Positions 5,349 through 49,422 of a stretch of 64,000 bases of DNA are shown piece after piece; position 1 is the first letter of the stretch; each line of letters opens with the position of its first letter. Made by a program: the position numbers and the translations under genes. The stretch is from positions 124,001 to 188,000 of the forward strand of contig NZ_JACJRC010000009.1 of assembly GCF_014697025.1 (NCBI RefSeq), written 5' to 3'. The notes beneath the pieces were generated by a model. That model did not search any database and was not told the origin of the DNA. It saw nothing but the letters and a program-made list of their open reading frames with translations. Source of the stretch: Alkalinema sp. FACHB-956. Its GTDB lineage: Bacteria; Cyanobacteriota; Cyanobacteriia; Leptolyngbyales; Leptolyngbyaceae.

Positions 5349-6134
5349 TCATAATCCATTTAGCACGGCACTTCCCGGTCCTTGGAACATTAACCAGGAA
5401 AGAAAGAAGTTAGAAATAAAAATAGCTAATAAGGAGGTAACAACAGCGGTGGTTGTCGATTGACCCACCCCTTTTGCACCTCCTGTTGTTGTTAGGCCCC
5501 AACTAGAACCAATAATTGCAATGAGTAAGCCAAACACAACCCCCTTAATGGGAGCACTACATAAATCCCAAAGGTTTACAAAGTTTTTGGCAGAATCTAA
5601 AAAAACATGGTGGGAAATACCATACATCCAATCTGCAATGAACATTCCACCCGTCATACCCATTGCAAGGGACATTAGCGTTAGCAACGGTAACATCAAA
5701 CAGCAGGCAATCACTCGGGGAATCACTAAGTAATCCACCGGATCAGTTCTCAGCATGTAAAGCGCATCAATTTGCTCAGTCACTTGCATGGTTCCCAATT
5801 CCGCTGCAAAGGCAGAACCAACCCGTCCAGCCAAAATTACAGCCGTCAGCACCGGAGCAAGTTCCCGAGACAGAGAAATTGCCAGAACGCCCCCTACCGC
5901 TGACCCTGCCCCTAAGTTAATAAACTCCCGCGCCACCTGAATCGTAAACACCATCCCGACAAAACTGGCGGTGAGCAGCGCGATCGTCAAAGACTCTGGG
6001 CCAACGAGCACCATTTGTTCCAACGTATTCCGGCGATGAATTTTGCCTTGCAATAGGTGCACCACCACCTGACCCGCCAAAAAACAGGCAGCAATCAGAC
6101 GATTTCCCCACTTAGCAAGCGAACTAGTAGCCAT
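5349..6134 (-). CDS. MlaE family lipid ABC transporter permease
   Basis: This 261-residue permease belongs to the MlaE/YrbE/TGD1 family, which moves phospholipids between envelope membranes with an MlaF ATPase and MCE-domain MlaD partners. Typical features are about five hydrophobic helices and the conserved core FTIQVAREFINLGAGSAVGG-VLAISLSRELAPVLTA. ILAGRVGSAFAAELGTMQVTEQIDAL follows, and later TTTGGAKGVGQSTTTAVV. Length matches the family. No ATPase or MCE gene lies beside it here, so its partners must be encoded elsewhere, as is common in cyanobacteria. The start is ATG at 6132-6134. Confidence 0.94.
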   Translation of the reverse strand: MATSSLAKWGNRLIAACFLAGQVVVHLLQGKIHRRNTLEQMVLVGPESLTIALLTASFVGMVFTIQVAREFINLGAGSAVGGVLAISLSRELAPVLTAVILAGRVGSAFAAELGTMQVTEQIDALYMLRTDPVDYLVIPRVIACCLMLPLLTLMSLAMGMTGGMFIADWMYGISHHVFLDSAKNFVNLWDLCSAPIKGVVFGLLIAIIGSSWGLTTTGGAKGVGQSTTTAVVTSLLAIFISNFFLSWLMFQGPGSAVLNGL

Positions 6135-45947: not shown

Positions 45948-45993
45948 GAAGCTCATTGCTCTAGAAGCTCATTAGTCTAGAAGCTTCCTAGTC
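45945..45993. repeat. 16-17-bp repeat spanning two convergent stop codons
   Basis: TAAGAAGCTCATTGCTC (45945-45961) starts with the HAD stop. TAGAAGCTCATTAGTC (45962-45977) and TAGAAGCTTCCTAGTC (45978-45993) follow, and the last contains the stop of the opposing symporter gene (45988-45990). Confidence 0.85.
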
Positions 45994-47295
45994 TACAGGG
46001 GATTGATTAAGCGAAGAACCTGCGGTCGCTTGCATTGCTATAGCAACTGTTTCTTGTGTTGTTACTTCCTGTGTTACTCCAGCAATTGTTTCTAAATAAT
46101 TCCTTTCCAACTTGTCTAGTATTGCTGCATGGACAATGTTTCCCAATACATTGAGCATTGTTGATAGGCCGTCTACCAAGCGGTTGACCCCTGCCACGAT
46201 CGCCACGCCTTCCACGGGTAAGCCCGCAGCCGTCAGTACGGTTGTCATCATGATAATGCCAGCCCCCGGCACTCCAGCGGTACTGAGGGAGACGAGAAAA
46301 GTGCTGAGAAAGATAGCGGATAGCAAAGTGGGCGTCAGGGGAATATGAAATAATTGGGCAATAAAAACAGCATTGAAACCCTGCATAATGGCTGAACCAT
46401 CCCGCTTTAGGGCGGTACCCAGGGGAATGGCAAAACTGGCAATCTCATCGCGCATTCCATACTGGGTGTGGGCATCTTGGAGAGCAACGGGTAAGGCTGC
46501 ATTAGAACTGGCGGTGCCAAAGGCCAGGGATAGGCTAGGAGAGAAGCTTTGAAAGAGCTTCAGTGGAGAAAGTTTAAATGCAAGGAGAATGGCAATGTAA
46601 ATCGCAATCATCCAGAGAATGGCAATAGCATCCCCTACAACATAGTTAAATAGTTTTGCAATAATGCCTAAACCTTGATTGGCTACGACGGAACTCATCA
46701 ACGCAAACACCCCGATCGGAGATGCGTAAAGCACTAGAAACAAGATCTTTTCACTAATTGCATAAATACTCTCTACAAACTGCACAAAGGGTTGAGCCCG
46801 ATTACCCGCTTGCTGAATCCCCAATCCAATCAATCCTGCGGAGAGAATGGTTTGCAATAAATTTCCCGTTGCCAGGGCAGTGAGGGGATTGGTGGGGACG
46901 AGGCTAATCAGCCATGCCAAGAGGTCGGGAGCTTGGGGGGTTTCTAGGACAGGCGCGATCGCAAGCTCGGTCATCTGGACAGACGATCGCAGCACAATAG
47001 CGGTGCCCATACCAAGGGCGACGGCTAGGGAACTGGTGAGTAAATAGCCGCCCAAGAGCTGAAGGGTATATCGCCCCATTTGAGCCGCATTGCGGATGCG
47101 TGCCATCGCCAAAATCAACGAAGAGAAGACGAGGGGCACGACGACAAACTGAATTAACCGCAGAAAGATTTGGCCTAGGGGATCAAAACCATAGTGGTCT
47201 ATTAAACCGACCCAAGCAGGACAAAGATCATGGAGGGCTGTTCCAAAGGCTAATCCTCCCACCAATGCCAGCAAAATTAGCGTTGAAAGTGTCAT
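45988..47295 (-). CDS. Dicarboxylate/amino acid:cation symporter, copy 1
   Basis: A roughly 435-residue inner-membrane symporter of the DAACS (GltP/DctA) family, which takes up glutamate, aspartate or C4-dicarboxylates with H+ or Na+. Hallmarks are LAFGTASSNAALPVALQDAH (serine-rich hairpin), IPLGTALKRDGSAIMQGFNA, STAGVPGAGIIMMTTVLTAA and VNRLVDGLSTMLNVLGNIVH. I begin at ATG 47295 (MTLSTLILLALVGG) because its neighbour copy starts at the same place in the alignment. The longer TTG start at 47316 has no support. It lies beside a paralogue in the same direction. Confidence 0.93.
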   Translation of the reverse strand: MTLSTLILLALVGGLAFGTALHDLCPAWVGLIDHYGFDPLGQIFLRLIQFVVVPLVFSSLILAMARIRNAAQMGRYTLQLLGGYLLTSSLAVALGMGTAIVLRSSVQMTELAIAPVLETPQAPDLLAWLISLVPTNPLTALATGNLLQTILSAGLIGLGIQQAGNRAQPFVQFVESIYAISEKILFLVLYASPIGVFALMSSVVANQGLGIIAKLFNYVVGDAIAILWMIAIYIAILLAFKLSPLKLFQSFSPSLSLAFGTASSNAALPVALQDAHTQYGMRDEIASFAIPLGTALKRDGSAIMQGFNAVFIAQLFHIPLTPTLLSAIFLSTFLVSLSTAGVPGAGIIMMTTVLTAAGLPVEGVAIVAGVNRLVDGLSTMLNVLGNIVHAAILDKLERNYLETIAGVTQEVTTQETVAIAMQATAGSSLNQSPVD

Positions 47296-47458
47296 GGTCT
47301 GCGATCGGGCTCCCAAAAATTCACCACCCCACTAATTTATCTAAGTTCCACAGGTTTAATTGTGTCCAATGGATAAGTTTTGATAGAGATCAAGCAGCGT
47401 TCCAGGGGCCTTGGTCCTGTTTGGGGGGGTGGACGTTTCGACGTGCTCAGCATCATGG

Positions 47459-48724
47459 CTAGTGCGGTTGGGTTTCTTCCGATCGTGCTTGGGCGGTGGC
47501 TTCCTGGGCTGCTTCTCCAGAGGGCTGTCCTTGTTCCCAGCGTTCCAGAAATACCGCATTGGCCGTATTGCCCACCACGTTCAAGATCGTGTGAAAGCTA
47601 TCCATTAAACGATCGATGCCCGCTACGATCGCCACGCCTTCAATGGGCAGCCCCGCAGCGGTTAGTACCGTCGTCATCATAACAATGCCTGCGCCGGGAA
47701 CTCCAGCAGTACTGAAGGACACGAGTAAGGTACTCAGGGCGATCGCAGACAGCAAACTGGTCGTGATGGGGACATCGTACAACTGCGCCACAAAAAGGGC
47801 GTTAAATCCCTGCCCGATCGCCATGCCATCGCGTTTGAGGGCTGTGCCGAGGGGAATGGCAAAACTGGCGATCGGGGCTGAGAGGCCATAGGTTTCCTGG
47901 GCGTCTTTGAGGGCGATGGGTAGGGCGGCGTTGGAACTGGCGGTACCGAAGGCGAGGGATAGGGTGGGAAAAAAGCTACGGAAAAAATGAATCGGTTTGC
48001 CCTGAATCAACCCCAACAACAGCCCATAGACTCCAATCATCAACCCGATCGCGAACACAGTCCCCACCATGTAGGTCAACAGACGGGTTAAAATGCCGAA
48101 ACCTTGAATGGCAATCACAGAACTCATGAGCGAGAACACACCAACGGGAGCAAAGTTGAGAATGAAAAATAGAATCTTCTCACTAATGCTGTAGACACTT
48201 TCCACAAAGGCGATAAAGGGTTTCGCTTTCTCGCCAGCTTGTTGGATGCCGATGCCAATTAGTGCGCCGGAAATGATGGTTTGCAACAGGTTGCTAGTGC
48301 TGAGGGCCTGTAAGGGATTTGTGGGAATCAGGCTGACCATCCAGTCAATCAAATCGGGGGCAGTGGTGCTGGTATTCACCGTTTCTAAGGTGAAGCCAAT
48401 CATGCCGCTGCCTGGTTGCAAAATAGCAGCGGTTCCCATGCCCAGGGTAACGGCGATCGCGCTGGTCAGAAGATAACCCAGTAAGAGTTTGGCGGTATAG
48501 CGGCCCACTTGGGCGGCATTTTGGACGCGGGTGAGGCCGAGGATCAGGGAGGAAAAGACGATCGGGACGACGACGAATTGAATCAGCCGCAGAAAGGCTT
48601 GGCCTAAGGGGGCTAGGCAGTAGTGATCTAAGGAAAGAACCCAAGCTGGAAAAAACTCATGGAGGGTTGCACCAAAGGCAATCCCTAGGCCCATGGCCAA
48701 TAGGATCAGGGTAGAAAGATTCAT
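47459..48724 (-). CDS. Dicarboxylate/amino acid:cation symporter, copy 2
   Basis: A 421-residue paralogue of the gene downstream, with the same hallmarks: LAFGTASSNAALPIALKDAQ, IPLGTALKRDGMAIGQGFNA and STAGVPGAGIVMMTTVLTAA. The two align from the first residue (MNLSTLILLAMGLGIAFGAT against MTLSTLILLALVGGLAFGTA). They differ most near residues 100-130 and at the C-terminus. A tandem duplication followed by divergence explains them. The pair may be an operon (about 160-base gap) with different substrate ranges. The start ATG is 48722-48724. Confidence 0.93.
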   Translation of the reverse strand: MNLSTLILLAMGLGIAFGATLHEFFPAWVLSLDHYCLAPLGQAFLRLIQFVVVPIVFSSLILGLTRVQNAAQVGRYTAKLLLGYLLTSAIAVTLGMGTAAILQPGSGMIGFTLETVNTSTTAPDLIDWMVSLIPTNPLQALSTSNLLQTIISGALIGIGIQQAGEKAKPFIAFVESVYSISEKILFFILNFAPVGVFSLMSSVIAIQGFGILTRLLTYMVGTVFAIGLMIGVYGLLLGLIQGKPIHFFRSFFPTLSLAFGTASSNAALPIALKDAQETYGLSAPIASFAIPLGTALKRDGMAIGQGFNALFVAQLYDVPITTSLLSAIALSTLLVSFSTAGVPGAGIVMMTTVLTAAGLPIEGVAIVAGIDRLMDSFHTILNVVGNTANAVFLERWEQGQPSGEAAQEATAQARSEETQPH

Positions 48725-48841: not shown

Positions 48842-48909
48842 GCAGGTCTGTCTTGTGACGGCAGGTCTGTCTTGCGAGTACAGGTCTGTCTTGCGAGTAC
48901 AGCTCTGTT
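48842..48909. repeat. 19-20-bp tandem repeat, about 3.5 copies
   Basis: GCAGGTCTGTCTTGTGACG, GCAGGTCTGTCTTGCGAGTA and CAGGTCTGTCTTGCGAGTA follow each other (48842-48899), then a partial copy. Confidence 0.85.
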
Positions 48910-48953: not shown

Positions 48954-49010
48954 TTGACATACTCAACAAATTGAGTATATAGTGCTGGACATACTCAATT
49001 TGTTGAGTAT
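48954..49010 (+). promoter_or_regulatory. Sigma-70 promoter overlapped by two mutually inverse 20-bp dyads
   Basis: TTGACA (48954-48959) and TATAGT (48978-48983) are separated by 18 bp. The dyad ATACTCAACAAATTGAGTAT (48959-48978) fills the spacer. ATACTCAATTTGTTGAGTAT (48991-49010), its exact reverse complement, lies just downstream of the -10. Centres are 32 bp apart, three helical turns. This is a textbook layout for repression by a dimeric regulator; which one is unknown. Confidence 0.8.
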
Positions 49011-49032: not shown

Positions 49033-49422
49033 ATGCTGAAATATAAGCTCTATCAAGCTGCTTTGCCGGAGCATCCCGAGGCGGTGGTGTTTGTGAATGG
49101 GATGATTGCCCGCGATCGGGCGGGTTTTTTGTGGTTTTGGCGGAATTTGCCCAGTATTTATCGATCGACTTCGCAGGCTGCGGGCTGCTTGCAGGTGAAG
49201 GCGGGCATTTGTGGCCCGAAGGAAGTGATTATGGTGAGTTATTGGGAATCCGAGGCGCAGTTGATGGCGTTTTTTCGGGGGGCGGCCCATCGGGAGATGA
49301 TGCAATTTACCCAGCGTCATCCCAATAGCTTGTGTCTTTATAACGAAACCTATCAGCCGAGAAAAAGTGGGAAATATAGCCACGAGCCGCAGGGAATGGC
49401 AATCGTCTATGGTGTGTCGTGA
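49033..49422 (+). CDS. Small monooxygenase-like (dimeric alpha-beta barrel) protein
   Basis: A 129-residue protein. AVVFVNGMIARDRAGFLWFW, VIMVSYWESEAQLMAFFRGA and AHREMMQFTQRHPNSLCLYN give the strand-helix pattern and HREM element of ABM-like or DUF4188-type proteins. The exact family is uncertain. I start at ATG 49033, with AGGGAG at 49021-49026. An upstream ATG at 48982 would overlap the promoter and the second operator. Transcription is likely tightly controlled by the dyads at 48959-49010. The reaction cannot be told; related small proteins modify or bind quinone-like and aromatic compounds. Confidence 0.8.
   Translation: MLKYKLYQAALPEHPEAVVFVNGMIARDRAGFLWFWRNLPSIYRSTSQAAGCLQVKAGICGPKEVIMVSYWESEAQLMAFFRGAAHREMMQFTQRHPNSLCLYNETYQPRKSGKYSHEPQGMAIVYGVS

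Follow-up and report, generated by a model that had tools for sequence, protein, structure and literature searches.

Among the closest known relatives of the system analyzed here is AphA of Vibrio, a PadR-s1 protein (PDB 1yg2) that prefers ATGCAA-N4-TTGCAT as target sequence (PMC6855506). It represses some of its targets, its own gene included, via sites located over promoter elements (PMC6855506, PMC3440409), and the genes it targets are quorum-sensing or virulence genes. The Bacillus/Lactobacillus PadR proteins (padC repressor) and LmrR/LadR share with our locus, as interpreted here, the PadR-family control of detoxification-type genes by inverted-repeat operators; their reported motif consists of ATGT and ACAT, 8-10 bp apart (PMC3506622). 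The cyanobacterial clock protein Pex is cited in a passage of PMC3506622 as a PadR regulator of circadian rhythms, and by this description it likewise represents a PadR-family regulator in cyanobacteria. A Nostoc transcriptome paper names a PadR gene just in passing. Our literature search for a link between PadR and DUF4188 found none, and the sole DUF4188 paper it found was a database.

The locus analyzed here is a promoter within a 64-kb window (the whole stretch of DNA that was analyzed). Its two putative operators share with the AphA operator the 6-bp arms, the 4-bp spacer and the CAA-N4-TTG core (ACTCAA-N4-TTGAGT), but their half-site reads ACTCAA and not ATGCAA. In contrast to AphA, the sites form a tight pair 32 bp apart, and the target is a gene with a predicted ABM fold. 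The kind of system is already known; what is new is the proposed code that relates a regulator residue to the half-site, and the relocation of the regulator gene.

The DUF4188 promoter and its paired dyads

The features of the promoter region are as follows (window coordinates).

48954..48959, plus strand: TTGACA, -35 element of the DUF4188 promoter; relatives keep this hexamer, or one close to it, before operator 1
48959..48978, no strand assigned: operator 1, ATACTCAACAAATTGAGTAT, an 8-4-8 dyad that fills the -35/-10 spacer; position kept in 30/37 relatives
48976-48981: TATATA, overlapping the -10 element, with a 16-bp spacer; position conserved in relatives
48978..48983, plus strand: -10 element TATAGT, with an 18-bp spacer
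48991..49010, no strand assigned: operator 2, ATACTCAATTTGTTGAGTAT, 32 bp downstream of operator 1
49033..49422, plus strand: putatively regulated gene for a 129-aa PF13826 protein (DUF4188, Monooxy_af470-like; Pfam) with a predicted ABM ferredoxin-like fold

TTGACA and TATAGT together match 11 of 12 consensus bases of a sigma-70-like promoter. GACA directly precedes TACTCA in both operators, and the distance of 32 bp corresponds to about three helical turns. These coordinates confirmed the original prediction, which had described two mutually inverse 20-bp operators three turns apart, one in the -35/-10 spacer, its inverse copy downstream of the -10 element, and GAC in front of both. Operator 2 would cover the predicted start site and the first transcribed bases.

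When we searched for the exact pattern TACTCAA-N4-TTGAGTA, only the two 18-bp operator cores were found in the 64-kb window, and the 6.16-Mb genome contained no others. Shuffled sequences yielded 1.8 matches per window at up to three mismatches, and scaling of this count gave about 2e-4 exact matches expected. The prediction had also held that complementarity over 20 bp could not be due to chance. The complementarity itself follows mostly from the palindromy of the sites: each copy is a perfect dyad by itself (ATACTCAA-N4-TTGAGTAT), and any two copies therefore match at 16 of 20 bases in either orientation. The exact inversion of the pair is due solely to the 4-bp centres, CAAA and TTTG.

Base-pairing between the copies is possible along all 20 bp, which would leave a loop of 12 bases, and at the 5' end of the mRNA operator 2 could fold into a hairpin by itself; the element might therefore be a nucleic-acid structure (hairpin, cruciform or 5'-UTR stem-loop) instead of a pair of protein operators. 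We regard this as extremely improbable. Operator 1 lies between the -35 and -10 elements and is untranscribed from the DUF4188 promoter, several relatives carry the copies in direct orientation (L021, L029), and the same dyads occur singly in other padR promoters.

The 129-aa product scored 34.7 bits with PF13826 (cutoff 25, Pfam), and PF03992, the ABM family itself, remained just below its cutoff. Its AlphaFold model is of moderate confidence (mean pLDDT 63.8), and ABM proteins, RslO4, SnoaB and YgiN among them, dominated the Foldseek matches of this model. These data predict a ferredoxin-like ABM fold with moderate confidence. With the ABM and PF13826 proteins YgiN, SnoaB and Af470 the product shares the PF13826 domain and the predicted fold; a sequence search for a solved relative found no close one, and a search for plasmid carriage of the gene gave no match. 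Of the original prediction, the double operator of a repressor type in front of an ABM-like gene is supported.

Two further observations concern the DNA upstream. A short tandem array (48843-48908; 3.5 copies of CAGGTCTGTCTTGCGAGTA, 89% matches) lies just upstream of the DUF4188 promoter, between it and a divergent symporter gene. This gene (47459-48724) is the second of two adjacent, similar sodium:dicarboxylate symporter-like genes on the minus strand, matches PF00375 and, together with its neighbor (45988-47316), probably arose by tandem duplication.

A candidate regulator encoded elsewhere in the genome

The regulator that we propose is encoded on another contig (C51) of the genome (G000).

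G000:C51:10578-11147, distant from the target gene: padR, coding for an AphA-like PadR (PadR-s1) protein of 190 aa

An operator site with one mismatch (C51:11165-11182) was found 18 bp upstream of the padR ATG, and no other transcription-factor gene of the genome has a site of zero or one mismatch immediately in front of its start codon. The padR promoter has a single operator and not a pair. The protein matches the PadR winged helix in its N-terminal part (PF03551, 46.9 bits) and Vir_act_alpha_C in its C-terminal part (PF10400, 91.0 bits), both above cutoff; with this domain pair and its length it falls into PadR-s1 (PF03551 plus PF10400, about 180-190 aa). Vibrio AphA, with which it shares both domains and full-length similarity, was its best PDB match (1yg2, E 2e-33, residues 1-177), and similarity to the solved PadR 5x11 of the Bacillus/Lactobacillus type was weaker (E 4e-17). 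A search of the genome with the C51 protein detected no second AphA-like PadR, and the other PadR-domain genes have neither a full site match nor a QQQ-type recognition helix. The genome's only AphA-like PadR is thus the most likely regulator of the DUF4188 promoter.

A repressor of the MarR, TetR or HxlR type had originally been suspected; the candidate is an AphA-like PadR instead, identified by its domains and by the site before its own start. The proposal to look for a self-regulated repressor pointed in the right direction, as judged from this site. The genome search with TACTCAA-N4-TTGAGTA, which had been expected to uncover a regulon, led to the additional one-mismatch site at padR but to no third exact copy. 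The convincing sites are those of the DUF4188 promoter and padR only, and the predicted regulon is very small.

Other matches were inspected. An intergenic sequence, TACTCAATTTGTTGAGTG (G000:C16:18196-18213, L005 2997-3014), differs from operator 2 at one position, has the same centre and precedes a histidine kinase/response regulator pair by about 155-170 bp. We rejected it as a second target, as none of 13 kinase homologues had a comparable site, and the match may possibly be due to chance. A match at C8:24778 is located inside a short ORF and was taken as chance. The looser pattern TANKCAANNNNTTGMNTA gave 81 genome matches compared with 41 for the reversed control, and there was no convincing paired site among the part of the 81 that was inspected.

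We inspected 37 cyanobacterial loci with a homologue of the target gene (L013-L049). In 26 of them the adjoining divergent gene codes for a homologue of the C51 PadR (43-60% identical). The complete arrangement of TTGACA, operator 1, TATA and operator 2 at 31-33 bp was found in 30 of the 37. When the window is included, the spacing is 32 bp in 24 elements, 31 bp in six and 33 bp in one. L009 has TATTCACTAAATTGAATA and its inverse between padR and the gene, again at a distance of 32 bp. Judged by sequence conservation, the element of the window is a real, conserved double operator, most likely of PadR. A few relatives lack it (L037, L040, L043, L045, L047, L049), and PadR control would therefore not be universal. 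In L040, the promoter of the DUF4188 homologue, upstream of the match at 6001, has no PadR dyads and shows another inverted repeat, an imperfect one (GTTGACACTGTTAACAT...ATGTTGATAGTGTAAACATGTCAA); this promoter has possibly been taken over by another regulator. In the intergenic region upstream of padR in L074 and L023, one of the operators is overlapped by a further long inverted repeat (CAATTAATTGACTAATCG...CGATTAGTCAATTAATTG).

Dyads of this size at promoters are generally typical of several repressor families, and a winged-helix or TetR-type protein unrelated to PadR (MarR, HxlR, ArsR, TetR) might bind them. However, the sole other convincing genome site is the padR promoter, padR is the divergent neighbor in most relatives, and the half-site letters track a residue of the PadR recognition helix (see below). 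Such a repressor is, to our judgment, highly unlikely. Taken together, we put the probability that the two dyads are operators of the C51 AphA-like PadR repressor, working as outlined here, at roughly 0.86. In this model, the -35/-10 spacer would be taken up by a PadR dimer bound at operator 1, and another dimer, bound at operator 2 three turns further along the same face of the DNA, would mask the start site. The two dimers together would shut out RNA polymerase and silence the ABM-fold gene, until PadR is released by an effector that is probably hydrophobic or aromatic. padR would limit its own synthesis via the single operator just before its start codon. What the sequences show are the sites, their conservation, the gene neighborhood, the site at padR and the covariation of residue and half-site. 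We infer binding by PadR, repression, same-face cooperation and the ligand, and, since AphA can activate as well as repress, also the direction of control, for which the operator placement is our guide.

The neighbors of related PadR genes bear on the ligand. Genes of the RPE65 type (carotenoid-cleavage-oxygenase-like) lie upstream of AphA-like padR on the opposite strand in L079, L086, L087, L090 and L091, and HlyD-type adaptor genes take their place in L084, L088, L097 and L098 (Pfam check of L079, L090, L084, L097 and L098). Further neighbors are Coq4-like and other PF13826 proteins. Such neighbors suggest hydrophobic or isoprenoid-derived ligands.

Residue 37 and the operator half-site

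For 167 PadR proteins from cyanobacterial genomes, we gathered sites of the type TANNCA-N6-TGNNTA upstream of padR, leaving NN free, and sorted the half-sites by residue 37 of the recognition helix.

Q37 (45 proteins), 134 half-sites: CT 65, TG 0
H37 (51 proteins), 170 half-sites: TG 98, CT 7
F37 (41 proteins), 154 half-sites: TT 102, CT 15

It can be seen that Q37 pairs with TACTCA, H37 with TATGCA and F37 with TATTCA-like half-sites. The genome of the window combines a Q37 PadR with TACTCA. Vibrio AphA has H at position 37 in the alignment where the C51 PadR has Q, and ATGCAA-type half-sites in cyanobacteria occur with H37 PadRs. In a genome of the same family as that of the window (G167), a Q37 PadR with 61% identity in the matched part is encoded beside a DUF4188 gene and has a TACTCA-type site. 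As a separate observation, TACTCAACAAATTGAGTA, upstream of a Q37 padR in another genome (L196, G366), equals the operator 1 core letter for letter; we found no match to the target protein in that genome.

The same pairing was seen at target promoters. With a Q37 regulator encoded at a distance, and hence with target and padR sites that are distinct, 19 of 24 half-sites carry CT; next to an F37 regulator, where padR and target share the sites, it is 8 of 100. The genomes with a distant regulator represent only about two lineages, that of the window and a Calothrix group. The best tree shows about seven changes of residue 37, few of them on well-supported branches, and the covariation is therefore a strong association built on few independent events. 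On balance, we lean slightly towards the view that residue 37 (Q/H/F) sets NN of TANNCAA (CT/TG/mainly TT), that operator and residue stayed matched after padR and target were separated, and that the mirror-image promoter preserves a former two-way layout as a fossil.

Origin of the mirror image

For 26 distinct elements, we compared the two copies in both orientations. The inverse comparison was better in 16, the direct one in five, and five were ties, which makes exact inversion a tendency and not a rule. Apart from this excess, inverse identity was higher than in partner-shuffled pairs (15.7 vs. 14.7 of 18), and the symmetry itself might be functionally required, for example when a PadR tetramer reads the asymmetric centres face to face. 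However, the inverse-identity test keeps sequence relatedness in, exceptions occur among the elements, and a two-way promoter predicts equal symmetry and also accounts for a lost mirrored -10 element. We consider a requirement for symmetry unlikely.

At divergent loci, the rightward gene promoter has operator 1 in its spacer, and the padR promoter would read leftward with operator 2 in its spacer, so that two promoters would face each other, each with one operator in its spacer. Of 25 loci with padR as neighbor, 19 have a mirrored leftward -10 element (TATA), compared with 0 of 6 where padR lies elsewhere; the Fisher test gave p 0.001, which overstates the evidence since the six non-adjacent cases represent about two lineages. 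The mirrored -10 element of the window reads TATGTC, and the leftward -35 element is poorly conserved. Since the mirrored -10 element was mostly kept beside padR and lost elsewhere, the pair is most simply understood as a fossil two-way promoter. The mirror image of the window would thus be inherited from such an ancestral promoter and is best explained as its relic, with the putative operators still in use.

These results assign a cyanobacterial promoter to a definite candidate regulator and offer, for a large PadR subfamily extending to Vibrio AphA, a DNA-recognition code based on one residue. As PadR genes of this subfamily lie divergently beside carotenoid-cleavage oxygenases, exporter adaptors, Coq4-like and PF13826 proteins, the code could help to map their regulons and to find the small molecules that are sensed.
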